Virus record (IMG/VR): IMGVR_UViG_3300048587_000304
Span: 1-30,249 of that record
Strand: one strand, 5' to 3'
DNA: 30,249 nucleotides
Source of the DNA: a virus
Shown here piece by piece: positions 6,426 through 27,888 of this stretch. The notes beneath the pieces were generated by a model, which was not told the origin of the DNA, did no database searches, and saw only the letters and a list, made by a program, of their open reading frames with translations. Positions within the stretch are counted from its first letter, which is position 1. Each line of letters starts with the position of its first letter. Position numbers and translations under genes: made by a program.

Positions 6426-6649
6426 CCCGCCGCATCGCCCTCGAGATATTCGATGACGCGGAGCGGTGCTCTGACGGGTACGTGGCCCAATGCAAAAACC
6501 TGTCATGGGATAACGACGGCACCAGCAAAGAGTGGTTCTGGTGTAGCGCGTTCGGCGTAGAACTTGGGCGAGACTGCGACACGTTCGGAACCCCCATCCG
6601 CTGCCCCGAGTGCAAAGCGGCGGAGATACGGGAGGTGACCGATGGCTGA
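6422..6649 (+). CDS. Small Cys-rich protein
   Basis: A 75-residue protein with six cysteines: RCSDGYVAQC, WCSAFG, RDCD and the C-terminal RCPEC. The final CPEC with upstream cysteines suggests zinc binding. There is no signal peptide, so it is likely cytoplasmic, unlike the two lipoproteins. It overlaps the previous gene as ATGA. Just before its stop lies GGAGGTGA (6631-6638), the Shine-Dalgarno of the next gene. Function unknown. Confidence 0.6.
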   Translation: MTRRIALEIFDDAERCSDGYVAQCKNLSWDNDGTSKEWFWCSAFGVELGRDCDTFGTPIRCPECKAAEIREVTDG

Positions 6650-7187
6650 CCTCGAGAAGCTGTTAGACGAGCACCGGCGCGCCGCTCGCGAGGTCATTTT
6701 CCAAAAACTCGAAGGCAGCATGACCGACGTGGACTATGCGCAGACCGAGCTCGACACCGCCCGCGCAGCCATTATCGCCCACGTTACGGAGCTGCGGGAG
6801 CGCGCGGAGGAGGCTGAGGGCTACCTCGTGCGAATCGAGGAGCGCCTAAACGCGGCCGGTTTCGGTGTCGGTCCCAAGGAGTCTACTGCGCGATTATCGC
6901 GACTTGCGGAATGCGTTGACGGCCTGGCTCGGCAGCGCGATCGAGCCGTCGAGCTAGGAGAGAGTGCGTTGGCGGCGGAGGCGAAGCTCGAACGGGTTGA
7001 GCGAAAACTCGCAATGGCCGAGAAGGTGGTAGCGCGCGCCCGGGAGCTTGGGTCCTACCAATGGGAATTAAGGCTCGACGATAGCGGAGTCAGCGACGAC
7101 GCCAAGCACGACGCGTGCAGGCTGCGTAGCGCCGTCTACCACTACGACAACGCGGACCGGATCCGCGAAGCACTGGGGGACGAATGA
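6642..7187 (+). CDS. Coiled-coil early protein
   Basis: A 181-residue, highly charged, almost entirely helical protein. ATG 6642 follows a very strong Shine-Dalgarno (GGAGGTGA at 6631-6638) and overlaps the previous stop by 8 nt. Heptad-like segments occur at about 40-75 and 95-140; a short acidic C-terminal part contains an aromatic stretch (YHYDN). It lies directly before the coiled-coil/Mom-like fusion, whose N-terminal half has the same character, so the two may hetero-oligomerise. That is inference. Confidence 0.6.
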   Translation: MADLEKLLDEHRRAAREVIFQKLEGSMTDVDYAQTELDTARAAIIAHVTELRERAEEAEGYLVRIEERLNAAGFGVGPKESTARLSRLAECVDGLARQRDRAVELGESALAAEAKLERVERKLAMAEKVVARARELGSYQWELRLDDSGVSDDAKHDACRLRSAVYHYDNADRIREALGDE

Positions 7188-8131
7188 GTGACGAATTCGG
7201 AGCGATAGTCGTGCGGACAGTCGAACAGGTCTCCGCACTCGTCGGCGAGAACACGGAACTTCGTGTCCGCGCCGAACGCGCGGAGCGGGAGCGGGACGCG
7301 TTGCGCGCCTCGCTAGAAGACACGACGCTGGAACTGGAAATCTCGAGACGTGAGCGAGACGGCGCGCTGGTGTCACTCCGGGCCGAACGCGCAACGCTGA
7401 TAGTGGCGCAAGACAGCCTTAAAGAGGCCCGGGAGCGTGTGGATTGCTTGGTCACGTCACTAGCGGAAGGCGACAACGTCGATGCCGCCCTTCGCGCCCG
7501 CATCGAAGTGGCGGAGCGGGAGCGGGACGAAGCACAGGCTATCGCTCAGGCGGCTTGCGGTGACTTTTACATGGCAAGAGCGATTGCGCACAACGCTCGC
7601 GCCTGGGCTCGGCGGTGGAAGCTGGCGGCGAAGCGGTATCGCTCAGAGCCGCGTCTGCAGACCCGAGTGATGCTCGAAGTCGTGCCCAAGTTTCACGCGC
7701 CGTCTGCGCAGCTAGCGGACCGCCACTATTCGCGGCGTACCGTAGGCAGCCCGCAATTTATGCCGCCCGGGGAGACGCTGGTGCTTGCGGCGCCGGGGGT
7801 CGTATTTGGATGGTGGCGGCCGCACCCGAATAGCGGAATCCTAAGCATGAATGGCCTCGACGGCTGGACGTGTTCGATCTTCCGCAACGAGTCCGAGACG
7901 CGATCAAGCGAGCTGATTCTCGCGGCAGAGCGCGCTCTAGCGGAGTCGGGGCGCGGGTGCGGCCCCGACGGGATGTTGACGTACGTATGGGATCGCAAGG
8001 TGAAATCTCGCAATAAGGGATATTGCTTCAAGTGCGCCGGGTGGGTTGTGCATCCGGCCAAGCCGCGGTCCGCCGACGGGAAGAAAACTCTATTGTGGAA
8101 GCCGTTTGATGCGGCAGGGAGGGTGCCGTGA
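7184..8131 (+). CDS. Coiled-coil protein fused to Mom-like GNAT-fold domain
   Basis: A 315-residue protein with two parts. Residues 20-125 form a long coiled coil containing a duplicated AERERD block (19-bp DNA repeat at 7280-7298 and 7511-7529). Residues 160-310 form a compact domain with HYSRR (H181, Y182), a basic/aromatic strand near FGWW, IFRNES (R234) followed by SSELI, TYVWD (D270) and GYCF (Y280) near the end. This order and the HY, R, D and Y positions match what I recall of the phage Mu Mom family, GNAT-fold enzymes that add a methylcarbamoyl group to adenine in phage DNA. The domain alone is widespread in phages as a hypothetical protein. DNA modification is likely but inferred; the coiled-coil extension is unusual. 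Confidence 0.6.
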   Translation: MSDEFGAIVVRTVEQVSALVGENTELRVRAERAERERDALRASLEDTTLELEISRRERDGALVSLRAERATLIVAQDSLKEARERVDCLVTSLAEGDNVDAALRARIEVAERERDEAQAIAQAACGDFYMARAIAHNARAWARRWKLAAKRYRSEPRLQTRVMLEVVPKFHAPSAQLADRHYSRRTVGSPQFMPPGETLVLAAPGVVFGWWRPHPNSGILSMNGLDGWTCSIFRNESETRSSELILAAERALAESGRGCGPDGMLTYVWDRKVKSRNKGYCFKCAGWVVHPAKPRSADGKKTLLWKPFDAAGRVP

Positions 8132-8211
8132 GGGAGCTGTGCGCCTATTGCGCTGACAAGGTTTGGCGACTCGTGCAGCCAATGGGGCGAGCGGAAACGG
8201 GGGAGATGTGA
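8128..8211 (+). CDS. Microprotein with a CxxC pair
   Basis: A 27-residue reading frame starting at GTG 8128, overlapping the stop of the Mom-like gene as GTGA. It contains CAYC near the N-terminus. It is supported mainly by the chain of 4-nt overlaps: its TGA overlaps the GTG of the next microprotein, whose own TGA overlaps the ATG at 8288. Without this gene and the next there would be a 156-bp gap in an otherwise gapless operon. A real product is plausible but unproven. Confidence 0.35.
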   Translation: MRELCAYCADKVWRLVQPMGRAETGEM

Positions 8212-8291
8212 ACCGCCGACTCCGCGTAATCCGGAGCGCTATCCGGGAAAGGTCGAAACGGCTCAGCGGCAAGCGTTTAATGGCACGATGA
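8208..8291 (+). CDS. Basic microprotein
   Basis: A 27-residue frame starting at GTG 8208 with about ten Arg or Lys residues, predicted as one basic helix. Both ends overlap neighbours by 4 nt (GTGA before, ATGA after), which keeps the translational-coupling pattern. It could be a coupling leader for the 8288 gene rather than a functional peptide. Confidence 0.3.
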   Translation: MNRRLRVIRSAIRERSKRLSGKRLMAR

Positions 8292-8521
8292 CGACGTTCT
8301 TCTGCGAACGCTGCGGCAACGGGTTTGGGGGCGATTCGTGGATCGACTATCTCGACCCTAGGCACTCGGACCGGTGCATAGAGGTTTGCCGCGCCTGCTA
8401 CGCCGCCCGCAACTGGCCCGCGGTGCCGGAGGTGCAGTGGAGGCCGTACCGGGACGAGTGGGTGTTCCGGGTGCGCGGGCAGCTGCGCGGAGCCACAGCG
8501 GCGGGCGGCGGCGCGCGATAG
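8288..8521 (+). CDS. Zinc-ribbon-like protein, last early gene
   Basis: A 77-residue protein with CERC at residues 6-9 and C30/CRAC (34-37), a two-pair arrangement that fits a small zinc ribbon, followed by an aromatic and basic C-terminus. It ends with TAG at 8519-8521. It closes the + strand block; the convergent - strand block ends only 53 bp further on, with no hairpin terminator between them. Confidence 0.55.
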   Translation: MTTFFCERCGNGFGGDSWIDYLDPRHSDRCIEVCRACYAARNWPAVPEVQWRPYRDEWVFRVRGQLRGATAAGGGAR

Positions 8522-15076: not shown

Positions 15077-15813
15077 GTGCCATCCCAGTAGACGGCGGCC
15101 GGGTTGCGGTTGCCCCACAGGTCCCAATCGCCGTCAGGTTGATCTGCGTCCCACGCGGCGCCGTCCAGCACCACGATCACGTTCACGCATTGCGCGTGAG
15201 GCGGAGTCCACTGCGAAACGATCGATCGGACCGCGGCCACCTCTTCGACCGTCGCCGTGCTGCCCATGGTGCCAGCTTCGCCGAACACTCCCGGGGCCGA
15301 GTTGATGCCCTCGTCAGTCCATTTGGTGGCGCGCAGAACGACCCAGAACCGCGACCAGAGCTCGGGCGTTGCGTCCCAATCCCAGGTGCCGCCCGTGACC
15401 GAGGGGGCGCCGCTGGAGTCGCGCGCGTAGACGGTGCCGTTGCGGTTGACGACCGAGACCAGTACTCCAGGCGTCTCTGGTGCCAGGTGCGCCCGCAGCT
15501 GCTCGAGCAGCGCGAACGGGTTGCCGGCTCTGCGGTGGGCATCGAACGCGCCACGAAGCCGCGCGGCGTACTGGTCGTCACCCTCGAACGGCCCGCGGAT
15601 GATCCTGCGCTCGCGTCCGATTACCGGGATCGTTTCGGTACTGTAGACGCCCGGGAAGCGCGACTTGACTCCGCCGACCAGTGCATCGGCGACGGCATCG
15701 AGATGCACCCCGAACGCGTACACGAGCCGGCCCGCGCGCGTGACCGCGTTGTCCCCCTGCAGCCAGCGCGGCAGCGAGTTGCGGAGCGTGTCGCGGAACG
15801 TGGTCAGCGTCAC
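15073..15813 (-). CDS. Baseplate/tail protein I-like
   Basis: A 246-residue protein immediately after baseplate J. The N-terminus (FRDTLRNSLPRWLQGDNA) and the block RIIRGPFEGDDQYAARLRGA followed by NPFALLEQLRAHL resemble the P2 gpI/Mu gp48-type proteins that link baseplate wedges to fibres. The C-terminal half, with WDWDATPELWSRFWVV, is a distinct beta-rich domain. The start is GTG 15813, overlapping the J-gene stop. Position and motif agree; exact family is uncertain. Confidence 0.65.
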   Translation of the reverse strand: MTLTTFRDTLRNSLPRWLQGDNAVTRAGRLVYAFGVHLDAVADALVGGVKSRFPGVYSTETIPVIGRERRIIRGPFEGDDQYAARLRGAFDAHRRAGNPFALLEQLRAHLAPETPGVLVSVVNRNGTVYARDSSGAPSVTGGTWDWDATPELWSRFWVVLRATKWTDEGINSAPGVFGEAGTMGSTATVEEVAAVRSIVSQWTPPHAQCVNVIVVLDGAAWDADQPDGDWDLWGNRNPAAVYWDGT

Positions 15814-16979
15814 GGGTCCACCTGCGTTACGGCCGAGCACGTGATGGTACCGGGCTGCAGAACGAACGACGCCCCCACGCTCAGATCGCCACTCGGAGCC
15901 GCAACCGTGGCCGCGAAGATTTCGGGGCGCGCGTTGATGATCGCACCAATCAGCCCGGAGACGTAAAGGTTGCCAGTCACAGTCGGAGTCGCGTTGTCGC
16001 CACCGATCGGACGGGCCGCGATGTAAGCCGTAATCGCGTCAGCAACCGTGGAGCGCACTTGGGCGTCCGTGAGTCCGGCGCTGGAGTAGATCCAAACCGC
16101 GTACGTGACGTTGACCGTCTGCACCGTCGCGGTCTGCACGTTGCACGTCACCCCGAGCGGGACCGCGTTGAGTTGGATCGTGCGGTTGATCGCGCCAAGA
16201 TCCGTGGCGGGGTTGCCAGCGGTGCCAGTGACGCCGCCGGTAGCGGTGGCGCAGGACACGGTCACGGTCCCGTTGCCGCCATTCATGACGCGCGTGCGGG
16301 TGACGCCGATCGCAGTGCCATCGGCGCGGACTGCAGAGCGGGCGAAATAGTCGTAAGCGTTCGCGGGACCGTTCGGCGAAAGCGCCTCAAAACGATCTCG
16401 GCAGCGTGCCTTTAGCGCCGTGTCCGTCTCCTCGTCCGCACCCACGATCGCGTTCGCGTTCGTGACCGTTACGCCCGGCAGCGTCGTCTCGAGTTGCGTG
16501 ATCGTGCCCGGGGCGCTGGTGCTACCCGAGCCAGCCTCGATGGCCTGCACTGCGACAACTAGACCGGACTGGAGCGCGCCAAGCGACGCGGAAGCGGTGT
16601 TGCGGTAACCCTTGCCCGTGGTCGGATTGACTACGATCAGATCGCCAGGATCGAACGCATAGACGCCGCCGCCGGAATTCGAGAGCGTGATGTTACCCGC
16701 CGCGAACGTGGCCGGGATACGCTCCACGCCGTACGTGTGGCGCGCCACCAGAGTCAGCCAAGCGTCGCTCGAATACTCGAGGAACCCGCTCCGGGCGACG
16801 GCCGCGGTGAGCTCCGTGAACGCGGCAAGAACGGTAGACACGCCAGTGATCAGAGCGCGAACGACTGCGCCCGGTTTCCAGCCCGCCGTGTTGACCCCGA
16901 GCGCCGCAAGCACGCCATAGATCGACTCCTGCACCTGCGCGGGCGTCAGTGGCGTGGTCAATTCTGCGAGCGTTGCCAT
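15810..16979 (-). CDS. Baseplate protein J/gp47
   Basis: A 389-residue protein of the baseplate J family (Mu gp47, P2 gpJ). Supporting features: FLEYSSDAWLTLVARHTYGV near 68-90, a beta-rich middle ending around residue 180, ADEETDTALKARCRDRFEAL (about 181-200), and the C-terminal VNVTYAVWIYSSAGLTDAQV block. These are the usual landmarks of the family, and the length fits. It forms the baseplate wedge with the gp25-like protein encoded just upstream. ATG 16979 abuts the previous stop. Confidence 0.88.
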   Translation of the reverse strand: MATLAELTTPLTPAQVQESIYGVLAALGVNTAGWKPGAVVRALITGVSTVLAAFTELTAAVARSGFLEYSSDAWLTLVARHTYGVERIPATFAAGNITLSNSGGGVYAFDPGDLIVVNPTTGKGYRNTASASLGALQSGLVVAVQAIEAGSGSTSAPGTITQLETTLPGVTVTNANAIVGADEETDTALKARCRDRFEALSPNGPANAYDYFARSAVRADGTAIGVTRTRVMNGGNGTVTVSCATATGGVTGTAGNPATDLGAINRTIQLNAVPLGVTCNVQTATVQTVNVTYAVWIYSSAGLTDAQVRSTVADAITAYIAARPIGGDNATPTVTGNLYVSGLIGAIINARPEIFAATVAAPSGDLSVGASFVLQPGTITCSAVTQVDP

Positions 16980-17447
16980 TTACAGGATCTCCCCGACGAG
17001 AGCGCCGCTGTCAGTGACGGCGAACGTGAGCGCAAACGGAGCTTCGGACGCGATGCCGGCGATGGTGATTTCTATCTCCGACCCTGACCTGATCAGCTCA
17101 ACCGTCAAGGCACCATCGTCAATCCGATCGTCCTTGAGCAGCTCTGACCGAACCGCGCCGCGCATGGCCAGCAAATCGGCCGGCGTCTGGCCGCGGTGCA
17201 GGAACGATCGGAGGTCCAGACCGTAATCGGGATCGTCTAGCAGCGTGCCGCGTGCCGTGGTCAGTCGCCGCAACGCCGCCTCCGCAACGAGTCGCACGTC
17301 CGAGCCGTCCAGTTCGCTCCAGTCCTCGGACAGATCGTCAGTACAGGACAGGTCGGAGCCGTACCCGAGATCGCCAGTGGGCGGGTCCGCGATGCGGGAA
17401 GTATTGCTTACATATTCGGCGATCTTGGAAAGAATGGCTGCACTCAT
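16980..17447 (-). CDS. gp25/W-like baseplate wedge protein
   Basis: A 155-residue protein from ATG 17447. The central block, VRLVAEAALRRLTTARGTLL followed by DPDYGLDLRSFL, matches the GPW/gp25 lysozyme-like wedge family (Mu gp46). The acidic N-terminal insert, with DDLSEDWSELDG, is common in Mu-like members. Order spike, gp25-like, J is as in Mu-type baseplates. It is structural; an enzymatic role is not expected. Confidence 0.8.
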   Translation of the reverse strand: MSAAILSKIAEYVSNTSRIADPPTGDLGYGSDLSCTDDLSEDWSELDGSDVRLVAEAALRRLTTARGTLLDDPDYGLDLRSFLHRGQTPADLLAMRGAVRSELLKDDRIDDGALTVELIRSGSEIEITIAGIASEAPFALTFAVTDSGALVGEIL

Positions 17448-17971
17448 GATGTTTTCAGCGCCTGTTGGAGAGCAGCCCATACGCCTGGTTCCGTGGCCAC
17501 AAGCACGAGCGCGTGCCCGGTCGCGCCAGAGCCCGCGAGCGACTGAATCAGCGGCGCCAGTTCGGACCCGATATCCTCGATCGGCCCCTCAGCTTTGAGC
17601 AGGTGAACGCCCGGAGTCCCGAACGTAACGCCGAATCCGAGAGAGAGCGCGAGCTGCGCGTTGAGTTGCCCCAGGAAGATATTTAGTTCCGCGATGATGC
17701 CCGCGATCACGGACAGATCGATCGATGCGGACGGCAGCCCGAGCGCGATCGAAGCCTCGAGGCTTGCCACGAGAGCGAGCGCGGCGGAGAGCGACGCGGC
17801 CAGGCTCGGCGGCGTCAGCGTGAGCGACGCCTGGATCTCGAGCAGCCCCGCGAGCTTGGCCTGGAGTTCCGGCAGCTGCAGCCCCAGCGACACGTCCAGC
17901 GCCGCCTTTGCAGCCACGCCGATCGGGATGCACTCCCCAACGGTGTACTCGCCGACGATTTCGGCGCTCAT
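17444..17971 (-). CDS. Ala/Leu-rich baseplate-region protein of unknown function
   Basis: A 175-residue protein with low-complexity helical sequence rich in Ala, Leu and Ser (for example LSAALALVASLEASIALGL). It has no Lys or Arg over most of the stretch 40-135 but regular acidic residues. It lies between the hub/spike and gp25-like genes, overlapping both by 4 nt. The pattern is amphipathic rather than clearly transmembrane. Expected to be a baseplate component or assembly chaperone; no family recognised. Confidence 0.55.
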   Translation of the reverse strand: MSAEIVGEYTVGECIPIGVAAKAALDVSLGLQLPELQAKLAGLLEIQASLTLTPPSLAASLSAALALVASLEASIALGLPSASIDLSVIAGIIAELNIFLGQLNAQLALSLGFGVTFGTPGVHLLKAEGPIEDIGSELAPLIQSLAGSGATGHALVLVATEPGVWAALQQALKTS

Positions 17972-19146
17972 GCTAGCACCTTCGGATTCCCGGACGAGAT
18001 CACGCCCGTGAGCGGAGTCGCGATCGTGATCGTGCCCGTGAGCGGAGTCGTGGCTGGCGGCACCCCTACCGTCCCGACGATCGGAATCGGGGTCGCGGAC
18101 GAGACGAACACCTGCACCGCGTCACCCACGCGAGCGACCGGCCGCGTCCCGTCAAGGAACGAGAGCAGCGTGGGAGAGAACCCGTTCTCGCCCTTCTGCG
18201 AGAACCCGGTCACGATCGGCAGCGTCGGATCGCCCTCGACAAATTGGACCAGCACTTCGGAGCCCGGGGTGAGCTCCGCGTGTGCCCCGGCGACGCCCGG
18301 CCGTTGCGGCACCGGCAGCACGTCCGGCAAACCGGCGGCCTTGCGGACCGCCTGCAGGTTCACGCGGCCGTCAGCGGCCATAGACACTACGCGGTAGCGC
18401 CAGAGCCCGTGGAGCCTAGAGTCCGTCGCCCGTTGCGCGATCACCGCGAGAAGCTCGGGCAGCTTTGCGCCTTGCTCCGCGCTGCCGCCCGTCCAGCACG
18501 TTGCGCGGAGCTTGCCGGCCTCAACTAGCAGCTCGAGCTCCCGGACCGTCCTGGAGCCGCCCAGGCGCGAGTCCGGAACCACTGCCCCGGGCAGCACGTC
18601 CGTAAGCTCGTCCGAGACCAAGATCGCGATCTCGTTCCGCGGGTCGAACTCGAGCAGCTCCGCGGCGCTCGTGTACGTGGGGCGCGGCCCGATGTTGGTT
18701 TTGCCGTCGAGCCCCACCCACCAAGGAGCGGAGCCGGCGCAGTCCTCGAGCACCCGCGACGCAGGGCACGCCCGCCGGACGTAATCGGCCCCCAGGCGCT
18801 CTTTCGTGGGCGCGAACGATCCCAGGGCTTCCCCGGTCTCGCGGGCCGCGTCCGTGGCAACGTGGAGCGCCTTGACGCCTGCGTCGTTGTGATACGCCTT
18901 GGGGCGCACGAGCCGACCCCAGCCGTCAGCGCCGCCCACGATACGGACGCGCGCGCCGGCCACGAACGAGCCGCCGTCGCGGACGGTTCCGGAGAGCGTG
19001 GCCTCGCCGATCTTGAGCTCCACGCGACCGGAGAGCGTAACGGCCTCGTCCAGATCGCAGTCCGCGAACCAGGCGCCGGCATTCGGAACGCACAGCCGCA
19101 GCGTCGGGACCCGGTTGCCGTTCAGGGTGCAGAAGAATTCGCTCAT
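17968..19146 (-). CDS. Baseplate hub/spike fusion with OB fold and PAAR-like end
   Basis: A 392-residue protein. Residues 1-230 resemble a baseplate hub (gp27/gpD/Mu gp44 type), with LSGRVELKIGEATLSGTV and a long alpha/beta region. Residues 240-320 form a gp45/gpV-type OB fold: RYRVVSMAADGRVNLQAVR, then GSEVLVQFVEGDPTLPIVTG. The last 60 residues (ARVGDAV ... VISSGNPKVLA) look like a membrane-piercing, PAAR-like tip containing the repeat ATPLTG twice. Separate hub and spike genes are usual, so this is a compact fusion. It overlaps both neighbours by 4 nt. Confidence 0.7.
   Translation of the reverse strand: MSEFFCTLNGNRVPTLRLCVPNAGAWFADCDLDEAVTLSGRVELKIGEATLSGTVRDGGSFVAGARVRIVGGADGWGRLVRPKAYHNDAGVKALHVATDAARETGEALGSFAPTKERLGADYVRRACPASRVLEDCAGSAPWWVGLDGKTNIGPRPTYTSAAELLEFDPRNEIAILVSDELTDVLPGAVVPDSRLGGSRTVRELELLVEAGKLRATCWTGGSAEQGAKLPELLAVIAQRATDSRLHGLWRYRVVSMAADGRVNLQAVRKAAGLPDVLPVPQRPGVAGAHAELTPGSEVLVQFVEGDPTLPIVTGFSQKGENGFSPTLLSFLDGTRPVARVGDAVQVFVSSATPIPIVGTVGVPPATTPLTGTITIATPLTGVISSGNPKVLA
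18004..18050. repeat. Two 17-bp direct repeats in the spike-tip codons
   Basis: GCCCGTGAGCGGAGTCG occurs at 18004-18020 and again at 18034-18050, 30 bp apart. On the coding (-) strand each copy encodes part of ATPLTG near the C-terminus of the hub/spike protein, giving a ten-residue periodic unit. It could be a spike-apex beta repeat or a recent slippage duplication. Confidence 0.7.
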
Positions 19147-19646
19147 CCGGCGAGCTCCTTAAGCTGCCCCGTGAGCTGCTCGATTCGCTGATCGTAAGGG
19201 TCCGTGGTCGCACTCTTCGCGCCGTCGGGCTTGGACGACTGCGCGCGCGGCTTCCGGTACTGCAGAAACACGATCTCGATCGTCCACTCACCGTCAGCGG
19301 ATTGGATCGGCTGCTTCCAATTCTTGACGACCACGGACTTGATCCCGAGTTCCTCAAGAAACGGGTGCCAAATGTCGAGCGCCTTGGGACGGGTGCCGAT
19401 CGGGGCTTTGGCGACGAGGTGCTTCCAAAAATCCCAGCGCAGCCAATCGTCATCGGAATACAGCCGCAGCTTGACCGAGAACTCTGAGAGTTCATCGCCC
19501 GTGTACCGGGCAACGGCGCCGCTCATTCCGTAGCCCTGCGCGGAGTCCCATTTGCGGGGCGTGGCCGCGCCCTCAACGTCCGCAATCCCGGGCGAACGCT
19601 CGCCAGCAAGCAGGATGTAGTCGATCGGATTCGTGAGCGGGTTCAT
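19143..19646 (-). CDS. Tail/baseplate protein between tape measure and hub
   Basis: A 167-residue protein. The body is beta-rich with aromatic residues (LRLYSDDDWLRWDFWKHL, IWHPFLEELGI), and the C-terminal 40 residues are charged and helical (QRIEQLTGQLKEL). In Mu the equivalent position is held by gpN, and in P2 by gpU/gpD-type hub adaptors; this protein is shorter than gpN. A tail-tube initiator or hub adaptor role is inferred from position. It overlaps both neighbours by 4 nt. Confidence 0.6.
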   Translation of the reverse strand: MNPLTNPIDYILLAGERSPGIADVEGAATPRKWDSAQGYGMSGAVARYTGDELSEFSVKLRLYSDDDWLRWDFWKHLVAKAPIGTRPKALDIWHPFLEELGIKSVVVKNWKQPIQSADGEWTIEIVFLQYRKPRAQSSKPDGAKSATTDPYDQRIEQLTGQLKELAG

Positions 19647-21421
19647 ACGGCCGGCGCCCCCATCTCGATCGCGACACCTTCAAGGATGCGCTCCAGCTCG
19701 AGCTTCACGGACATTGCCAGTCCGCGCGCATCCGAGCCGCCGCCGTTCACGTTCAGATTCTCGATCACGATCGAGGGGCCGCGCGCTGCAGCGGTGCCGC
19801 GAGGTGCGGCCGCTGGCACGGATACCATCTGCTCCGCGGCGCTTTGCACGTCCGCCGAACCGGCCTCGATACCCTGCGCGGCACCCTCGGCCGTGAACTC
19901 GCCGTAAGCGCGAAAGACTTTGGACGGCGACGCGATACCGAGCGCGCTTGTAAAGCCGGACTTCATCTTTGTGGCGAGCGCCTTCACGGCCTCGAGCACA
20001 GCGCTGGCCCCGGACGTGATGCCGTTGACGAGGCCGTTGATCAGGTTCGTGGCGATCGATCCCCACTCGAGCGTGGACAGGTACATGACGCCGGCCACCA
20101 ACGCAGCCAAGCCAACGAGCGGCAGCGTGAACGCGAACGCGAGAGCCGCAACGGCCGCGACGATACCGAACACTGCGAGCGCCATCGTGAACGCCGTCGC
20201 TGCCCCGACTGCGAGGAAGAGCAACGCGGTGTCCAGCTTGCTCGTATCGATCTTCGCGAACATGTCGCGGAGGTAATTCCGCACCTGGAAAATCTTGATC
20301 GCGATCAGGAGTAGGCCAATCGTAAAGCCCTGGACGAAACGCTTGACCGCTACCTCAGCACCAGAGGCGCCGCCGAATAGCGGATTGAACAGCGACTCGA
20401 CGATCGTTTTCAGCGCGCGCCCCGTGGCCTCGTTCTGCGAGAACATGCGGGTGACGGTCGAGAGCGCGGACAGGAAGCCTTCGATCTTCACGCCCGAGAA
20501 GATGCGCGCGACGTTTTCCCTCAGCTTCGACATTTGGACGCCGAAGTCGAGCGCCTGCGCCTTGGCAATTCCGCCGAGCCTGCTCTTGACCCGGTCCGCC
20601 ATCTTGTCCACGGAGCTACCGACAGCAGCAGCACCGGCGGCCATGCCCATGAACGCGGAGGCCATCTCCTCACCCTGCGCGCTGGCGACGGTCGCGGTAG
20701 CCTCGAGGGCCTTGCTCAAGTTCCCGCCGCGTAGCCCCATCTTGTACAGGCTCGTGGCGTATCCTTCGATCTGACCGCGTCCGAGCGCGCTTTCGCCGCT
20801 GACGCGATCGATCGCCGATTGCAGATCGCTCGCCTTGCCGGCTGCGATCCCCCAATAGTTGATCGTTTTCGTGAGCCCTTCGAGCCGCAGCGCTTCGGCC
20901 CGGCGCGCACCAGCGGACGCGAGCGCAAACGAGGCCATGGCGCCGACCGCAACGCCGATCGCGGCCGCCATTGCGAGCAGCGCGGCGACGGCAGCGACGG
21001 CTGCAGACGCAACGCCGGCAATGCCCGCAGCGCCGGAGAGGTTCTTGAGCATCCCGCCGGCTTGGCCAGCGCGGCCGCCGAGCGCCCCGAGGATATCGTG
21101 CAGCCCTTCGATCTTGACCGCTGACACGGCCGCCGACTTGGCACCCTTCCCGAAGTCGCCCCCGAGCGAAACGATCTCCTCGGCCACGGACGCGGACGAG
21201 GCCTTGAGCGCGGCCATGCGCTTGGACATCTCGCCGATCGCCTGCGTGTTCGGATTCGTGGCGCCTTTGAGTGTCCTCATCACGCGCTGCATTTCGGACA
21301 GCGCCGCCGTGTCCTGCTGGAGCTTGGACTTAAGATCGGACAGCCGCGAGGCCGCCGACTGTGCCGGCGCCGAAACCCCATCCTTGAGGTTTATCGCTAC
21401 GCTGATCGTCTCGTCGGCCAT
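19643..21421 (-). CDS. Tail tape measure protein
   Basis: A 592-residue protein. It has an N-terminal coiled-coil region (about 15-85), a hydrophobic Ala/Val-rich stretch (about 130-170, with AAVAAVAALLAMAAAIGVAV), a second hydrophobic block (about 395-445), and the C-terminal motif GIASPSKVFRAYGEFTAEGA (about 515-535) typical of tape measure proteins. This sets tail length and acts inside the tail tube; the hydrophobic parts may enter the host membrane at injection. About 590 residues predicts a short to medium tail. Preceded by the frameshifting chaperone genes, as is usual. Confidence 0.88.
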   Translation of the reverse strand: MADETISVAINLKDGVSAPAQSAASRLSDLKSKLQQDTAALSEMQRVMRTLKGATNPNTQAIGEMSKRMAALKASSASVAEEIVSLGGDFGKGAKSAAVSAVKIEGLHDILGALGGRAGQAGGMLKNLSGAAGIAGVASAAVAAVAALLAMAAAIGVAVGAMASFALASAGARRAEALRLEGLTKTINYWGIAAGKASDLQSAIDRVSGESALGRGQIEGYATSLYKMGLRGGNLSKALEATATVASAQGEEMASAFMGMAAGAAAVGSSVDKMADRVKSRLGGIAKAQALDFGVQMSKLRENVARIFSGVKIEGFLSALSTVTRMFSQNEATGRALKTIVESLFNPLFGGASGAEVAVKRFVQGFTIGLLLIAIKIFQVRNYLRDMFAKIDTSKLDTALLFLAVGAATAFTMALAVFGIVAAVAALAFAFTLPLVGLAALVAGVMYLSTLEWGSIATNLINGLVNGITSGASAVLEAVKALATKMKSGFTSALGIASPSKVFRAYGEFTAEGAAQGIEAGSADVQSAAEQMVSVPAAAPRGTAAARGPSIVIENLNVNGGGSDARGLAMSVKLELERILEGVAIEMGAPAV

Positions 21422-22058
21422 CAGGATTCCTTCGGAGTCAGCAGCTTGCGGATTAGGGTCAGTTCGTGGAGAGCTTCCGCGATCAGTAGCGCTGCGGTGT
21501 ACCGGCGCGCGTGCGCGGCCTCGGTCTCGTCATCCCGATCGGGCAGCAGCTCGATCAGGCACTCGGCGGCGGCTCCGTAGTCCTTACGAGCCGCCGCCCG
21601 TAGCTCTGTTATTTTCCCGCGAGGTCTTGCCGGTTGATGCCCGCCAATCTGCAGACCGCTTCGGCGGCCAACACGAGAGCCGCGGGGACCTCTTCGCACA
21701 ACGCTTCAAACTCAACCTTGCTCGGGTACACAAGGCAGCTCGAAACGATCTTGTCGATCGCGCCGCTCGCTTCTGGCTTGTCCTGGAACCGCTTCCACAA
21801 CACGTGGTTTGGTCGCTTCACAACGACCGCGCCCGCGTCCGTGTTCACGACCAGGAGCCGCTTCCCGATCGGGCCGTGCTCCGCCTCGAGCTTCGCGAAC
21901 GCTTCGGCTTCCTTGGCCGCGCGCTCCTCGGCTTCCACCTCGAGCTTAAGCACCTCGAGCTGCCGCGCCTTGTCCGCAGCAGCTTCCGCAGCCTCACGAC
22001 GGCGGCGCGCCTCATTGCGGCGCGCCTCGAGCTCTTGAACCGTATTCCCCTCCGACAT
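21421..22058 (-). CDS. Tail assembly chaperone, -1 frameshift product (gpG-T type)
   Basis: The second chaperone segment (about 21612 to 21421, 63 residues from ITELRAAARKDYG to LTPKES) has no ATG, GTG or TTG at a useful position. It is in the -1 frame relative to the 21609-22058 gene. A slip at GGGAAAA (21618-21612 on the - strand) joins the two to give about 212 residues. This is the arrangement of lambda G/GT and of analogous chaperone pairs in P2- and Mu-type phages. The long form would bind both the tape measure and tail tube subunits. It ends in an ATGA overlap with the tape measure gene. Confidence 0.8.
21609..22058 (-). CDS. Tail assembly chaperone, short (zero-frame) product
   Basis: A 149-residue protein from ATG 22058, with GGGAG about 9 nt upstream; a GTG at 22064 overlapping the tube gene stop is an alternative. 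The N-terminal 60 residues are a highly charged Glu/Arg/Ala helix; the rest is a compact alpha/beta domain (GPIGKRLLVVNTDAGAVVVK onward). The TAA stop lies directly after the slip site. Position between tail tube and tape measure is diagnostic for tail assembly chaperones. It should not be present in the virion. Confidence 0.78.
   Translation of the reverse strand: MSEGNTVQELEARRNEARRRREAAEAAADKARQLEVLKLEVEAEERAAKEAEAFAKLEAEHGPIGKRLLVVNTDAGAVVVKRPNHVLWKRFQDKPEASGAIDKIVSSCLVYPSKVEFEALCEEVPAALVLAAEAVCRLAGINRQDLAGK
21612..21618 (-). other. Programmed -1 ribosomal frameshift site GGGAAAA
   Basis: On the - strand the zero-frame codons are GCG GGA AAA TAA. The heptamer G GGA AAA fits the X XXY YYZ rule exactly, and a -1 slip re-pairs both tRNAs on GGG AAA and bypasses the adjacent TAA. 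Lambda uses the related GGGAAAG between G and T. The downstream frame stays open to the tape measure start. No stimulatory hairpin was identified by eye. Confidence 0.85.
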
Positions 22059-22060
22059 GA

Positions 22061-22540
22061 TCACGGACTCCCTTCGCTGGCGTCGAACAGCACGAGGCCG
22101 TTACGCCGGATCAACATGCAGTCGAACTCCACGTCTTCCTTGAGTGGGTCGGCGCCCTCTTCGTCCGTGGCCGAGTTGCTGGTCCACACGCAGCGCTCGA
22201 GCTCGACCGTGATCGGCGTCTCGTCCGCTTCTACGTACTGGATCACCACGTCAAACTCTGCGTCGCCATACGAGGTGTTATCCCCGGCCTTGGCGGCGAG
22301 AGCGACGCGCATCGCCTGCAGCGACGAGCGGAAGCCGGTGACCTTCACGGGCTCCGTGCTGTACTTGCCGCGGCTGCGTCCGCGCGGGCCCTGGTGACGG
22401 GCGCTGCCGTATCCCTTTACCCGCTCTCGCTTGTCCGCGTACGCGATCGAGGTGATGCCGTGGTAGCGATCCCCGTCGATCTTGACGATGATCGAGCCCC
22501 ACGAGAGGAGATTGCCATTGACGCGAATCTGGTCGGCCAT
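22061..22540 (-). CDS. Tail tube protein
   Basis: A 159-residue protein directly after the sheath gene, as in Mu (gpL then gpM). It is beta-rich, with NGNLLSWGSIIVKIDGDRYH at the start, and basic in the middle (HQGPRGRSRGKYS). The length fits tail tube subunits. Identification is from gene order, size and general composition, as no sequence motif is decisive. Its stop overlaps the alternative GTG start of the chaperone gene. Confidence 0.75.
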   Translation of the reverse strand: MADQIRVNGNLLSWGSIIVKIDGDRYHGITSIAYADKRERVKGYGSARHQGPRGRSRGKYSTEPVKVTGFRSSLQAMRVALAAKAGDNTSYGDAEFDVVIQYVEADETPITVELERCVWTSNSATDEEGADPLKEDVEFDCMLIRRNGLVLFDASEGSP

Positions 22541-22541
22541 A

Positions 22542-24002
22542 TCACACCGCCCTCAGTGCCGGATTCGTGAACCCGAGCGAAAGGTTGATCGTTTCGGGGT
22601 ACGCGAGCGGAGTAAGCCGCGCGTCCACGTTCATCGTCTTCGTGCTCAAGAGGTTATCCGTGCGCGAGATCACAACGGACACGCCGGACGCCTTGGGCTT
22701 CGCGAGCAGCACCGCCCGCAGCGCAGCCTCCGCTCCCTTTTCGATCTCGAGCGCTTCGGACTCGAGGATGTAGCCGGTGACCTTGTTCACGCGAACCGGC
22801 TTGTTCAGGCGCGCAATGAAGTAGGCGTGCAGCGTTTGCCAGAACAGGTTGAACACGCGGAGGTGAGGCACGATCGAGAAATCGGAGCCGTCCGGCGAGA
22901 ACACGCGCGGGCGAGTCACGTACACGCCGGGGTAGCCGGGCCAGGTGCGGAGCGTGGTAAAGCGCGCGTCGTCAAGCCCGCCGTTGATCGCCTCGTCATG
23001 CCGGTCCGGGTTCCCGTTCGCGTCGCGAATCTGCACCCCGAGCAGCGGCCCGCCCGGCGCGTTGATCTGCGCGATGTTCACGTCTTGGTCCACGCTCGCT
23101 TCCTTGGCTGCGACTGCGTACGCGATCGGCAGTTCGCGGATCGCGTTACGGCCGGGGAGCGAGGAGGGAACGCGGCACGAGCCGGCGCACAGTTCACCCA
23201 CCGTCGTGGAGTACGCGCTCGAGATCGCCTGCATGGCGGTCAGGTACGTGGACTCACTCTCGGCCAGCGTGGGGACGCGCGTGTTACCGATCCACATGCG
23301 GGGCCGGCCCTGCGCCGCCATCCCGCTGATCAGCGTGTCCAGAGCGCCGCCCACCGTCGCGTCAACCGGCGACGCGAGCAGTAGCAGCTCCCAGTCCAGG
23401 GACGAATTTTTGAGCGCCGTCGCGAGCGCGCCCACGTCTGTAGACGTGCAGATCGGCTGCGTCGTGCGGAGCTTCACCAGATCGCCCGCGATGATCGTGC
23501 CGGCGGCGAGCGCGAACGAGAGCGTGCCGGCGCCGCTGACCGCGATCGAGGTGCCGGTCCCAAGCGCCTGCACCGCGCCGTAATTCGTGCCGCCGTCCAG
23601 CGAGACCTGATAGGTGATGCCGGCGGTGCCGCGGGTGCCACCGGTGACGAACTTGACCCAAATGTCATAGGTGTCATTCGGGACAGTGCCGCCGGTGACG
23701 CTAACAACGCTGGTGCCAGTCACGCCCGTGACATCGATCGTGCCCGCAGCGCCGGCTGTGCTCGCGTCCGTGCGCACGAGAACGACGGGTTTGCCGAACC
23801 GCTCGAGCGCGTAGCACGCAGCCTCTACCAGCGGCCCGCCGCCGAACGTGGCGACCACATCCTTGGTTCGCGCGTAGCCCGCTGGCGCGTTCTTGGTGCC
23901 GGAGTCAGCGGGGCCGGCAATGGCCAGCGGACGCCCGGAGCTCGGGGGCAGCACGCCGAGCGCGCCGTCAATCTTGGTGGTATTCAGGGCCGGAAGCGCC
24001 AT
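22542..24002 (-). CDS. Contractile tail sheath protein
   Basis: A 486-residue protein of the Mu gpL-type sheath family. Landmarks are the N-terminal GVLPPSSGRPLAIAGPADSG, FGGGPLVEAACYALERFGKP (about 50-70), and a C-terminal half with ARLNKPVRVNKVTGYILES followed by the conserved terminal domain (RTDNLLSTKTMNVDARL). A Gly/Thr-rich insertion (about 78-175) may be a surface-exposed domain. A sheath defines the phage as a myovirus-type contractile particle. Confidence 0.9.
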   Translation of the reverse strand: MALPALNTTKIDGALGVLPPSSGRPLAIAGPADSGTKNAPAGYARTKDVVATFGGGPLVEAACYALERFGKPVVLVRTDASTAGAAGTIDVTGVTGTSVVSVTGGTVPNDTYDIWVKFVTGGTRGTAGITYQVSLDGGTNYGAVQALGTGTSIAVSGAGTLSFALAAGTIIAGDLVKLRTTQPICTSTDVGALATALKNSSLDWELLLLASPVDATVGGALDTLISGMAAQGRPRMWIGNTRVPTLAESESTYLTAMQAISSAYSTTVGELCAGSCRVPSSLPGRNAIRELPIAYAVAAKEASVDQDVNIAQINAPGGPLLGVQIRDANGNPDRHDEAINGGLDDARFTTLRTWPGYPGVYVTRPRVFSPDGSDFSIVPHLRVFNLFWQTLHAYFIARLNKPVRVNKVTGYILESEALEIEKGAEAALRAVLLAKPKASGVSVVISRTDNLLSTKTMNVDARLTPLAYPETINLSLGFTNPALRAV

Positions 24003-24014
24003 TTTTCAAACTCC

Positions 24015-24569
24015 TCACGGCGCCACGGCGGGCGCGTTGAACGTAACGGTGATCCCTTGCGATTCGGCCTCGACGGCTGCGTGCGCGTCCGAGAGCGCGG
24101 CGTCCTCGTCATCCGGGATCATTGATTGGATCGAGCACGTGACGATGATCTCGGCGCCGTATCGGCGCTCGCTCTTGTCCGTGTTCCAGCGCGCGCTCTG
24201 GATCTCAAAAGTCCCGTGCGCGGCCAGGTGCATGGCCTTGCGCCACTCATCGAACAGCACCCGCGCGGCCTGGTACTGCGCCAGCTCGTTCTCGGGTGCG
24301 CTCGCGTCGTAGGCAGTCACGTAGACCTGGAACAACTCGCCCAACGTCGCGATCGGACGTGGAGCGCGGCCCACGTGGCGCGGTGGCAGGTCCTCGCCCA
24401 GTGACCCGCTCGAGTCCCCCGGCACGAACACGAGGCGGGCCGCTGGAGCGCCCGTGAGATGCTTCTGGGGCTCGCGCCAACCGAACACGCAAACCGCTCC
24501 AGGGACGGCAGCAACGACGCGCGCGGACACGTCCGCGAACAGCTTGGGGAGCGCGAGCGTGACGGCCAT
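24015..24569 (-). CDS. Tail terminator or head-tail completion protein
   Basis: A 184-residue protein just upstream of the sheath gene, the position of Mu gpK/gp37-like proteins. The mixed alpha/beta body (LFQVYVTAYDASAPENELAQ, then a helix, then strands RRYGAEIIVTCSIQSM) fits the tail-terminator fold. The C-terminal 30 residues are acidic, then hydrophobic. It overlaps the preceding gene as TAATG. Function is assigned by order and predicted fold only. Confidence 0.6.
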   Translation of the reverse strand: MAVTLALPKLFADVSARVVAAVPGAVCVFGWREPQKHLTGAPAARLVFVPGDSSGSLGEDLPPRHVGRAPRPIATLGELFQVYVTAYDASAPENELAQYQAARVLFDEWRKAMHLAAHGTFEIQSARWNTDKSERRYGAEIIVTCSIQSMIPDDEDAALSDAHAAVEAESQGITVTFNAPAVAP

Positions 24570-25006
24570 TAGCGGGCCGCCTTCCTGCGGGTGCTCTTGC
24601 GAATGTCGTGACGGCCTTCGCGCTCAAGAAACGCCTTGCTCACATTCGCGACGCCGAACCGGATCGCGTTACCGATCCGCTTGTTGAGTCCGGCGCTCGG
24701 AAGGATGGGGCGCTTGGGAGTGCGAAAGGTGCCGTACTGGTGCCAGACGTGGTGACCGGACAGCGTCAGGAGCACGACCGTTCCGCGCGCTTCGATCTGG
24801 AGCGCCCCGAGAGCGTTCTGGAGCGCCGGCTTGCCGTCCTTGGTCGCGGGCCATTTCTCGCCGCCCATGCCGCGTTGTGCAGCGATAGCGGCCGCGGCCT
24901 CGTCCTCGAGCACGGGCACGAGAGACTGCGCGATCTGCGGCAGCGCGCCGCCGAACGTGCGGAGACGCTGGATCAGTTCGTCCAACGATTCGAGACCGCC
25001 GCTCAT
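24569..25006 (-). CDS. Virion morphogenesis / tail completion protein (gpG-like)
   Basis: A 145-residue protein with the block HHVWHQYGTFRTPKRPILPS (about 84-103), the hallmark of Mu gpG / P2 gpS-type virion morphogenesis proteins, and a helical N-terminal part. The tail is strongly basic (RKSTRRKAAR). These proteins join heads to tails. It is placed after the DUF1320 gene, which it overlaps by 4 nt; in Mu the gpG gene lies before the capsid genes, so the order differs here. Confidence 0.75.
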   Translation of the reverse strand: MSGGLESLDELIQRLRTFGGALPQIAQSLVPVLEDEAAAAIAAQRGMGGEKWPATKDGKPALQNALGALQIEARGTVVLLTLSGHHVWHQYGTFRTPKRPILPSAGLNKRIGNAIRFGVANVSKAFLEREGRHDIRKSTRRKAAR

Positions 25007-25461
25007 CGGCCGCCCTCCGCCTGTACGTCAGTCCATGTGTACGGAGAGGACTCGGAGTAAGCGAGCGGCGACGGGGCGGTGATAGCGGACGCGGTGGAGT
25101 CGGCGCGCAGGGGGAGATCGAACAAGCCGGCGGCAGCGTCGGCGGCCTCCTTGACCTCGGCCACTGCAGTGTCCGCGTCGGCCTTGATTTCGGCAAACTG
25201 GAGATCGCTCGCGTCCACTCCGCGGCGCAGGTACGCGCGCAGCGTCACGACGCGCGTGACCCACATCTTGACGATCTCGGGTACCGGCGCAGCGAACGGC
25301 ACCGCATAGCGTTTACGAAGCCGCGCGTCCAAATGCACGGACGCGGACAGCAGCTGATTCGCGAGCCAGTTCGGCGCCGCCGCCTCGAGCGCGTCAACGT
25401 CCACGGCCGGCATGACCGTGTAAGTTTTGAATTCCGCGGTTGTGAGGTAGGCGCTCGACAT
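25003..25461 (-). CDS. DUF1320 / Mu gp36-like head-tail connector
   Basis: A 152-residue protein from ATG 25461 beginning MSSAYLTTAEFKTYTVMP. Helical segments follow, with DARLRKRYAVPFAAPVPEIV and WVTRVVTLRAYLRRG, which match the DUF1320 family (Mu gpJ/gp36). These form the connector below the portal. It lies 92 bp after the capsid gene stop, with a hairpin in that gap. The C-terminal 35 residues are Ser/Pro-rich and probably flexible. Confidence 0.8.
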   Translation of the reverse strand: MSSAYLTTAEFKTYTVMPAVDVDALEAAAPNWLANQLLSASVHLDARLRKRYAVPFAAPVPEIVKMWVTRVVTLRAYLRRGVDASDLQFAEIKADADTAVAEVKEAADAAAGLFDLPLRADSTASAITAPSPLAYSESSPYTWTDVQAEGGR

Positions 25462-25524
25462 TGGCAATCACGAATCAGCGCGAGAGAAGAGGCCGGGATT
25501 TGCTGCGCGGAGGGGAAACGCAAC

Positions 25525-25543
25525 GGGCTCCCGGCCAGAGCCC
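25525..25543 (-). terminator. Hairpin after the capsid gene, probable attenuator
   Basis: GGGCTC and GAGCCC form a perfect 6-bp stem around a 7-nt loop in the 92-bp gap between the major capsid gene and the DUF1320 gene. This is the largest gap in the late operon. The following - strand bases (GTTGCGTTT) have only a weak T run. It could partially terminate transcription so that capsid mRNA exceeds connector mRNA, or stabilise the capsid mRNA 3' end. Confidence 0.4.
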
Positions 25544-25553
25544 TAGGGGGAGG

Positions 25554-26585
25554 TCAGGTGGCCTTGCACTTCGCGATCAGGAACGGATGGCCCGGGGCCG
25601 TGGCGTTTCGCCCGTGCACCTGCCACTCGAACTCGCGCATCCGATCGAGCTGCGGAATCACGCCAGCGCCGTAGTTCGTCAGCGAGAACGGCTCGCGCTC
25701 GAGGTAGATCACGCCGCCGAGCTCGGAGGTCTTGGCTTGCTCGAAGATCACGTAGTAGCTCGTTGCGTCCGCGGAGAGCTCCGGCGCCTCGACAGGCTGA
25801 CCGAAACCCATTGCGCCGATGTACGCAGTCATGTCCGCGGTTCCGCCGATCGAGCCGGAGGAAGCCGCAACCGGGAACAGGCCCTTGCCCGCGCACAGAT
25901 TGACCACGCGGGGATACAGCTGGGGCGGCGCCACGATGTACGCCGGGCGCAGGAACCGAGGGTCCTCGCCGTTGGGCATCTTGATCGTGCGCATGTAGGA
26001 ATACAGCTTCGCCAGGTTGTTGATCGCGACCTCGTGAGAGACCGCGTCACCAATCGGCAGAGCGCCCGGATACGCGCCGCTGGCCGAGCTCGTGAACAGG
26101 TTCGCGTACGTGCCGCGAGCCGCGAACCCCGGGCACACCGGATGGTCCGTAGCGAACAGCGCCTTGCCGTCATAGCCAGTCGTGGACTCACCCGCGACGA
26201 GCAGCGCAGCAACCTGCTTCTGTGGCCAATAGGCCATATACGCGCCAACGTCGCGCGCCCAATGCGAGGCGAGATCGAGCCCGCCGCCGTCCGTGTCCTC
26301 GAGCTGCTCACGGCGGAGCTTGAGGCCCGTGGCCGCGTTCTTGTTCGTGATCTCCGTGTACGTGCTCACGAGATCGTCAAACTCAACGTTGCCGCCCGAG
26401 CCCGCGTCCTTGATCTGCGCGGTGGAGAGCAACCAGGAGATGATCTCCTTGCGACCGCTGGATTGCCGAACCTTGGCGACGGACTTCCACCAGAGATTCT
26501 GCTGAAACGCGGCGTATTCCGTGGCCGCGATGGTTGAAAGTCGATCCTCGAAGCCGAGGAATAAACTAGGAGTGAGAGCGCCCAT
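25554..26585 (-). CDS. Major capsid protein, Mu gpT-like
   Basis: A 343-residue protein of the Mu gpT head subunit family (HK97 fold). Recognised segments: FEDRLSTIAATEYAAFQQNL near the N-terminus, TYTEITNKNAATGLKLRREQ (about 89-108), GKALFATDHP (about 160-170), and the C-terminal EREPFSLTNYGAGVIPQLDR. Length fits. GGAGG lies 9 nt before the ATG, a strong signal for a highly expressed gene. It is separated from the next gene by a hairpin. Confidence 0.88.
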   Translation of the reverse strand: MGALTPSLFLGFEDRLSTIAATEYAAFQQNLWWKSVAKVRQSSGRKEIISWLLSTAQIKDAGSGGNVEFDDLVSTYTEITNKNAATGLKLRREQLEDTDGGGLDLASHWARDVGAYMAYWPQKQVAALLVAGESTTGYDGKALFATDHPVCPGFAARGTYANLFTSSASGAYPGALPIGDAVSHEVAINNLAKLYSYMRTIKMPNGEDPRFLRPAYIVAPPQLYPRVVNLCAGKGLFPVAASSGSIGGTADMTAYIGAMGFGQPVEAPELSADATSYYVIFEQAKTSELGGVIYLEREPFSLTNYGAGVIPQLDRMREFEWQVHGRNATAPGHPFLIAKCKAT

Positions 26586-26602
26586 GATTCAATTCCTCCG
26601 CG

Positions 26603-27334
26603 TCACGGCGAGACGTATGCGATTGCAGTCCAGCCCGCGCCGTGGCGGATGGCTCGGACCTGATGAACCTTCGACGCAGTGAGCGCCGTGGTGATGGCAG
26701 TCGTTCCGAAGCGGTACTGAACGGTGTGGCCGTTCTTGGTGCCGTCAGCGTTGAAGATCACTTCCGTCCCGACGCGCACACCGGTAGTGGGGAGCGTGAT
26801 CGTGCTGTTCGCGGCCGACGTGGGGACATCGAACACCGCGCCGTTAACGCACTGGGCGGCAGTGACGACGATATCCGCGGACGAGAACGCGAGCGTGGCT
26901 CCGACCTGGGGAGCGGTCGAAACATCGAGCTTCTCCACGAGGACGCCCTGTGTGCTGCTCACTGCCCAGCAACGGCCGGCGACCGCGCCAGCAGGCGTGA
27001 TCGTGACGGTGGCGTCGTCAGCAACGTATACCGTGCGGCCCACGTCAGCGGCGGCAACTGCGTCAGTCGAGGCAGAGTTAGCGACCCACTCCGCCGTGAT
27101 TTCGCGCTCGAGATCTACCTGCACGGCCTTATCCGCGGATGTTGCATCCACGTTCTGCGCGAACACGCCGATCACCAGATCGGTTGCGGCGGCCGTCGCG
27201 GGAACCACCTTGCCGGTGGGGAGCCGGATGGCGGCCATGCCACCCTTGAAAGCCTTGGTCCCGGACGTGAGCGTGAAATCAAGCGTCTTGAACTGCTTGA
27301 TCGTGCGCGGCTTATCAGCTGCGAGAGCGGTCAT
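26603..27334 (-). CDS. Two-domain capsid decoration-like protein
   Basis: A 243-residue beta-rich protein. Residues 1-140 resemble phage capsid cement/decoration proteins (AFKGGMAAIRLPTGKVVPA, later VGRTVYVADDATVTIT), similar to DUF2190-type proteins encoded beside the capsid gene. Residues 150-243 form a second domain (TITLPTTGVRVGTEVIFNAD) that looks like a small beta-sandwich seen in fibre and decoration proteins. Placement between protease/scaffold and major capsid genes supports a decoration role. Confidence 0.6.
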   Translation of the reverse strand: MTALAADKPRTIKQFKTLDFTLTSGTKAFKGGMAAIRLPTGKVVPATAAATDLVIGVFAQNVDATSADKAVQVDLEREITAEWVANSASTDAVAAADVGRTVYVADDATVTITPAGAVAGRCWAVSSTQGVLVEKLDVSTAPQVGATLAFSSADIVVTAAQCVNGAVFDVPTSAANSTITLPTTGVRVGTEVIFNADGTKNGHTVQYRFGTTAITTALTASKVHQVRAIRHGAGWTAIAYVSP

Positions 27335-27888
27335 TTGTCAGATCCCTTCACCGCCAGCGCGGGGAAAATGGTTCGGTGTGCTTCGCGCTTCACGGAAACC
27401 GTCTCGCGCGTGAGCCCCATCGCGCGATCAAGCGCGGCGAGCTCGTTGGACTCCGGAGCGACCGGAGCAGTGATTACGGTGTTGACCTCGGCCGCAGCGC
27501 GAGCGCCCGACACGGGGCCAGCTGCGAGCTTGGGCAGAGTCTTGAGGACGGCGCGCACGTTCTCGAGCGGCGCCTTGGAGAGTGCCAGTCGCGTTTCCAC
27601 GGGCAGGTCAGCGCGAGCAGCGATCAGCTGTTGCTTTTCGAACTCAGCCTGTGACGCAGCCACGACAGCAGCGATCGAAGGAACGGCGACGGCTTGAGCC
27701 TTCTCCTCTTCCTTCTCTTCCTTGGGCTCCTCTTCCTTCACCGGCTCTTCGGATTCGGCCTTTGCCTCTTCCTCTTTCGGTTCCTCGGTCTCGATCGCGG
27801 CAATGGCCTTGCGAGCCTTGGCGCGCATTTCCTCGGGCTTGGACTCGTCGTCCGCGAGCGCCCGGAGGGCTTTCAATGCCTCTTCCAT
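27331..27888 (-). CDS. Nested scaffold protein from internal start
   Basis: In frame with the protease gene, ATG 27888 (residue 269 of the fusion) is preceded by AAGGAG (27899-27894 on the - strand) with a 5-nt gap, a near-ideal ribosome binding site inside a coding region. It would give a 185-residue protein made of the acidic Glu/Lys-rich segment and the helical C-terminus, with no protease domain. This is the logic of lambda C/Nu3 and Mu I/Z. Expression is predicted, not shown. Confidence 0.7.
   Translation of the reverse strand: MEEALKALRALADDESKPEEMRAKARKAIAAIETEEPKEEEAKAESEEPVKEEEPKEEKEEEKAQAVAVPSIAAVVAASQAEFEKQQLIAARADLPVETRLALSKAPLENVRAVLKTLPKLAAGPVSGARAAAEVNTVITAPVAPESNELAALDRAMGLTRETVSVKREAHRTIFPALAVKGSDK

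Follow-up and report, generated by a model that had tools for sequence, protein, structure and literature searches.

The window analysed here, a stretch of 30,249 nucleotides of viral DNA, carries on its plus strand a genuine open reading frame of 315 amino acids (7184–8131), the ATG start of which overlaps the stop codon of the upstream ORF 6642–7187 (ATGA). The coordinates of this ORF, as well as its residues H181, Y182, R234, S241/S242, D270 and Y280, are exactly those given in a first-pass annotation of the same DNA. Elsewhere in the window, an Exonuclease VIII-like protein is encoded at 1901–2743 on the plus strand (phrog_412, E 6.9e-76; PF12684), and the minus strand encodes at 15813–30041 the structural proteins of a virion with a contractile tail, namely portal, head protease, major head protein (phrog_371), sheath (phrog_907), tape measure and baseplate. 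The features of the ORF and of its parts are as follows:

7184–8131, plus strand: ORF of 315 amino acids, helical N-terminus followed by a GNAT domain
7184–7645, plus strand: N-terminal helical, coiled-coil-like region, residues 1–154 (AlphaFold2 helices)
7531–7664, plus strand: stretch of 134 bp without a counterpart in the nearest relative (locus L002), separating the helical block from the GNAT domain, both of which L002 shares (blastn)
7665–7672, plus strand: fusion junction GAGTGATG, at which the helical gene of L002 stops (TGA) in overlap with the ATG of its GNAT gene
7664–8128, plus strand: GNAT-fold, Mom-like domain, residues 161–315 (phrog_24928, E = 6e-27; pLDDT 95; Foldseek; dN/dS)
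7724–7735, plus strand: HYSR motif, H181-Y182-S183-R184, just past helix alpha1 (H, Y and R in 98 of 98 family members)
7907–7909, plus strand: Ser242 at the start of helix alpha3, putative equivalent of the Mom catalytic serine (98 of 98)

A profile search of PHROGs v4 matches residues 174–288 to phrog_24928 (E 6.3e-27), a family annotated as of unknown function; the match extends over the conserved core and places the domain within this family. Scans of Pfam, NCBIfam and PADLOC with the domain gave nothing useful, and the family profile, run against the sequences of the PDB, matched none of them. The family is widespread among phages and has hundreds of relatives. In IMG/VR at least 507 relatives were found by one profile and 414 by a second (possibly overlapping sets, with 80 relatives retained from each search), and the domain is present in 33 loci of GTDB genomes. 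A few cultured phages carry the gene as well (Lily, Salinibacter phages, among them M8CR30-2, and one Micromonospora phage).

The AlphaFold2 model of the domain, computed from an alignment of 98 sequences, reaches a mean pLDDT of 95 and a pTM of 0.90. Its secondary structure elements follow the order b1-a1(-a2)-b2-b3-b4-a3-b5-a4-b6-b7, which is the topology of the GNAT superfamily. Foldseek comparison of the model with the PDB displays GNATs as all leading matches, the best being AAC(6')-Ii (E 1.5e-3, probability 1.00); Mu Mom (8bv8_B) appears at rank 6 (E 0.088, probability 0.72, TM 0.47), and the structural resemblance to Mom is no better than that to other GNATs. In the viral library BFVD, GNATs are again on top, with Mom of FSL SP-031 at rank 11. 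Hence, the predicted structure strongly supports a GNAT fold for residues 161–315, as had been proposed in the first-pass annotation for the C-terminal half of the protein. Comparison with L002 yields dN 0.023, dS 0.66 and dN/dS 0.036, values that indicate strong purifying selection on the domain. The canonical GNAT acyl-CoA motif Q/RxxGxG/A is absent from the domain, residues 237–242 reading S-E-T-R-S-S; the invariant S242 stands where this motif has its last glycine.

The full-length AlphaFold2 model places three helices ahead of the domain (residues 2–93, 99–124 and 128–154). The coiled coil of about 105 residues described in the first-pass annotation is retained as a helical N-terminus, which is predicted to be longer; a true heptad periodicity did not emerge from a simple hydropathy test (p about 0.5). 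A single relative of the helical region is present in IMG/VR, on the contig of L002, and no homologue was found in the phage collection. In L002 the domain is 96% identical and is encoded as a separate gene. Alignment of the window with L002 (blastn) displays two blocks, 7239–7530 (99% identity, helical) and 7665–8211 (89% identity, GNAT). The eight bases GAGTGATG are common to L002 and the window, and the fusion exists in the window because they are read in frame there and not as a stop-start overlap. Met163 is a possible alternative start, from which the domain would be made without the helices; no clear Shine-Dalgarno sequence precedes it in the window. Among about 110 other members of the family, nearly all are short stand-alone genes, the clear exceptions being two fusions to C5-methyltransferases (see below). 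Long open frames upstream of the domain in other members, such as L003 and L107, were also considered; they have no Pfam match, look like non-coding high-GC frames and were set aside.

Judging from the position of the junction and the 99% identical helical block, the coiled coil looks like a recent mosaic addition and not like conserved architecture. The fusion reported in the first-pass annotation is thus real in the sequence of the window, but it is absent in L002 and in essentially all other relatives. The same annotation had suggested that the coiled coil serves as a functional scaffold on which a multi-subunit modification complex is assembled. The three long predicted helices ahead of the domain, together with further coiled-coil-like ORFs upstream, would fit such an arrangement, which is however difficult to reconcile with a fusion missing from the nearest relative and essentially all others, and with a junction and helical block that indicate recent mosaicism. 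As the coiled coil appears to be a one-off mosaic fusion, the scaffolded complex is unsupported, and we consider it very improbable. The window clearly illustrates how genes become fused through phage mosaicism, and cautions against deriving function from a single fused ORF. Comparison of L002 (5128–5799) with the window (6642–7530) further displays that L002 joins the segment 7239–7530 to the end of the 6642–7187 gene. Coiled-coil genes are thus shuffled between phages.

Conservation within phrog_24928 was counted over 98 aligned members. Residues H181, Y182, R184, F233, S242, G279 and A285 are invariant (98/98), and R234 (96/98), N235 (93/98), C281 (91/98) and G286 (97/98) are nearly so. S241 is found in 83 of the 98 members, and column 282 is occupied by F in 81, Y in 13 and W in 4. 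The same count over 12 diverse Mom proteins gives H48, Y49, E98, N111, D139, Y149 and N153 as invariant residues, with R101 close to invariant. The His-Tyr pair that follows alpha1 in Mom (H48-Y49) is matched by H181-Y182, and the position of the Mom catalytic serine at the start of alpha3 is matched by S242. The solved Mom structure, 8bv8, is that of the inactive S124A mutant, in which S124 corresponds by alignment to S114 in the 231-amino-acid numbering of AAF01131. S114 would lie at the start of alpha3, where S242 sits in the window domain, and we propose S242 as the equivalent of the catalytic serine of Mom on the basis of topology and register, not of superposed coordinates.

The remaining Mom signatures are weaker or absent. 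Strand beta4, which carries ELNR in Mom (E98, R101), reads WTCSIFRN in the window and lacks the glutamate, and an equivalence of R234 with R101 is ambiguous. The aspartate at the end of beta5 (D139 in Mom) is split in phrog_24928 over two adjacent columns, 270 (D270, 41/98) and 269, one column earlier (another 42/98). Y149 and N153 of helix alpha4 are replaced by F282 and G286, respectively. The first-pass annotation had listed HY, serine, D270 and Y280 as Mom-like residues; the His-Tyr pair and the serine position hold, the aspartate does so weakly, and Y280 does not: it occurs in 57 of 98 members, and Mom Y149 aligns with F282 instead.

Profile searches with PF25680 and phrog_1384 gave no match to the window protein, and BLASTP to Mom was insignificant (E 0.037). 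HHalign of the domain family against the alignment of 12 Mom proteins scored 22.7 (maximum of shuffled controls 17.7, of reversed controls 19.4). Against a deep Mom alignment the score was 15.0, which lies under the best of 30 column-shuffled controls (16.6), whereas the same test scored 61 between Mom and another phrog_1384 subgroup (probability 95%). Membership in the Mom sequence family, as read from motifs in the first-pass annotation, was rejected because the HHalign signal was lost with the deep alignment, and a direct family tie of the domain to Mom is not supported. As His-Tyr and serine agree, while the aspartate is split and the Glu, Tyr and Asn signatures and the profiles fail, the link to Mom consists of the fold and two active-site elements. 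To this extent, the data support a description of residues 161–315 as a GNAT fold that may act in the manner of Mom.

These data also bear on the idea that the domain truly belongs to the Mom family, as a divergent enzyme, and modifies adenine as Mom does. The HYSRR stretch is the same as in Mu, the serine position agrees, and the HHalign alignment is collinear through HY, alpha3, beta5 and alpha4. Set against this, E98, Y149 and N153 are replaced or have no counterpart, D139 is partly matched, and the deep Mom profile is insignificant in a test that does tie Mom to another phrog_1384 subgroup. Moreover, three related contigs carry a separate, distinct phrog_1384 (Mom-like) GNAT at 0.4–1.4 kb from the phrog_24928 gene (L133:5667–6716, L018:6902–7756, L020:3840–4568). 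Such a divergent Mom enzyme appears unlikely to us. A gene resembling Mu Com was not found near the domain; a small, Cys-rich, zinc-ribbon-like ORF that follows the GNAT gene (8288–8521, plus strand) gave no similarity to Mu Com.

Better evidence on the function comes from DNA methyltransferases. At L025:4669–6426 and L124:3411–5426 the domain shares one reading frame with a cytosine-C5 DNA methyltransferase (PF00145, E 1.8e-41 and 3.3e-39, respectively), and the L025 fusion protein also matches phrog_24928 (E 1e-35). The two are divergent, non-identical copies on one 131-kb contig (IMGVR_UViG_3300028802_000007), and that this fusion is known from one contig counts against a reading as DNA modification. 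In phage Lily, the gene immediately precedes genes of Dam-type (adenine) and C5 (cytosine) methyltransferases. In a first set of loci, 7 of the 9 C5 methyltransferase ORFs are at most 1 kb away from the gene, a distance that takes in 21% of the flanking sequence (p 4e-4); this set includes seed loci, and p is about 0.02 without them. In a second, independent set, which represents one branch, this holds for 1 of 4 C5 ORFs, or 3 of 7 if Dam is included. As the clustering was not replicated in the second set, it is suggestive only. Most loci have no methyltransferase nearby, and none was found in the window by the methyltransferase seeds used. Taken together, fusions and neighbours favour a role of the domain in DNA modification, without proving it.

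GNATs acylate many kinds of substrate, which likewise counts against DNA modification; the anti-CRISPR AcrVA5, for instance, acetylates Cas12a. The domain might in this manner acylate a host or phage protein and not DNA, e.g. as a counter-defence acetyltransferase. The best structural matches among ordinary GNATs, the position of the gene in a cassette of early genes that also contains recombination genes and small ORFs, and a Mom membership not borne out by HHalign would all be in line with a protein substrate, while the C5 DNA methyltransferase fusion, the adjacent Dam and C5 genes, and the presence of HY and Ser at Mom positions speak against it. We regard protein acylation as possible, if somewhat unlikely.

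Based on this dataset, we hypothesize that the domain is a phrog_24928 GNAT acyltransferase, most likely involved in phage DNA base modification in a way roughly like Mu Mom, and fused to its N-terminal helices by recombination. The probability of this reading is, in our estimation, about 0.5. The domain would act on phage DNA bases directly or together with DNA methyltransferases, and host nucleases would then fail to cut. A block of host nucleases by base modification is stated for Mom (PMC7824862). The base or an amino group may be held by H181-Y182 and R234, the acyl donor would sit at the noncanonical loop ahead of alpha3 (S242), and the acyl-modified product would block host nucleases. 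The active site would be partly unlike that of Mom, with HY, S242, R234 and C281/F282 as opposed to HY/ELNR/Ser/Asp/Tyr. Recombination inside a shuffled coiled-coil gene may have deleted the stop codon that preceded the enzyme gene, so that the two frames became one. Rather than a conserved scaffold, the N-terminal helices probably represent a passenger that is tolerated, or else a weak tag for oligomerisation. While the predicted fold, the family, its conservation and selection, the fusion junction and the methyltransferase fusions elsewhere come directly from the analysis, we infer the acyl donor, DNA as the substrate, the anti-restriction role, and the fused protein as the expressed form.

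In a more far-reaching version, the phrog_24928 GNATs would form a DNA-modifying lineage of their own, which cooperates with C5 methyltransferases, sometimes in one polypeptide, and produces in hundreds of phages an acylated hypermodification, possibly on cytosine, that has yet to be described; this we consider a long shot. If the family does modify DNA, the phage repertoire of DNA modification would comprise a second lineage of GNATs besides Mom, and the family would offer a compact (about 150 amino acids), abundant and testable enzyme. Substrate and product could then be approached directly through the C5-methyltransferase fusion.

Several known systems may be compared with the window domain. 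GNAT acetyltransferases of the AAC(6')-Ii type (PDB 5e96, 7bxz) are nearest in fold, yet display 16–18% identity, and their drug-resistance function is not implied for the window domain. Mu Mom, a methylcarbamoylase (8bv8), is likewise the product of a phage gene and shares the GNAT fold, an identical HYSRR and the serine at the start of alpha3; its loop RNSES also lacks the glycines of the acyl-CoA motif. It differs in size (231 versus about 150 amino acids), and the window domain has no ELNR, keeps the aspartate partly, and has Phe for Tyr149 and Gly for Asn153. In phrog_24928, the family model of which spans 157 positions, relatives are nearly all stand-alone, whereas the window domain is fused to N-terminal helices. 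In the L025 and L124 fusions the domain is C-terminal as in the window, but the N-terminal partner is an enzyme and not a coiled coil.
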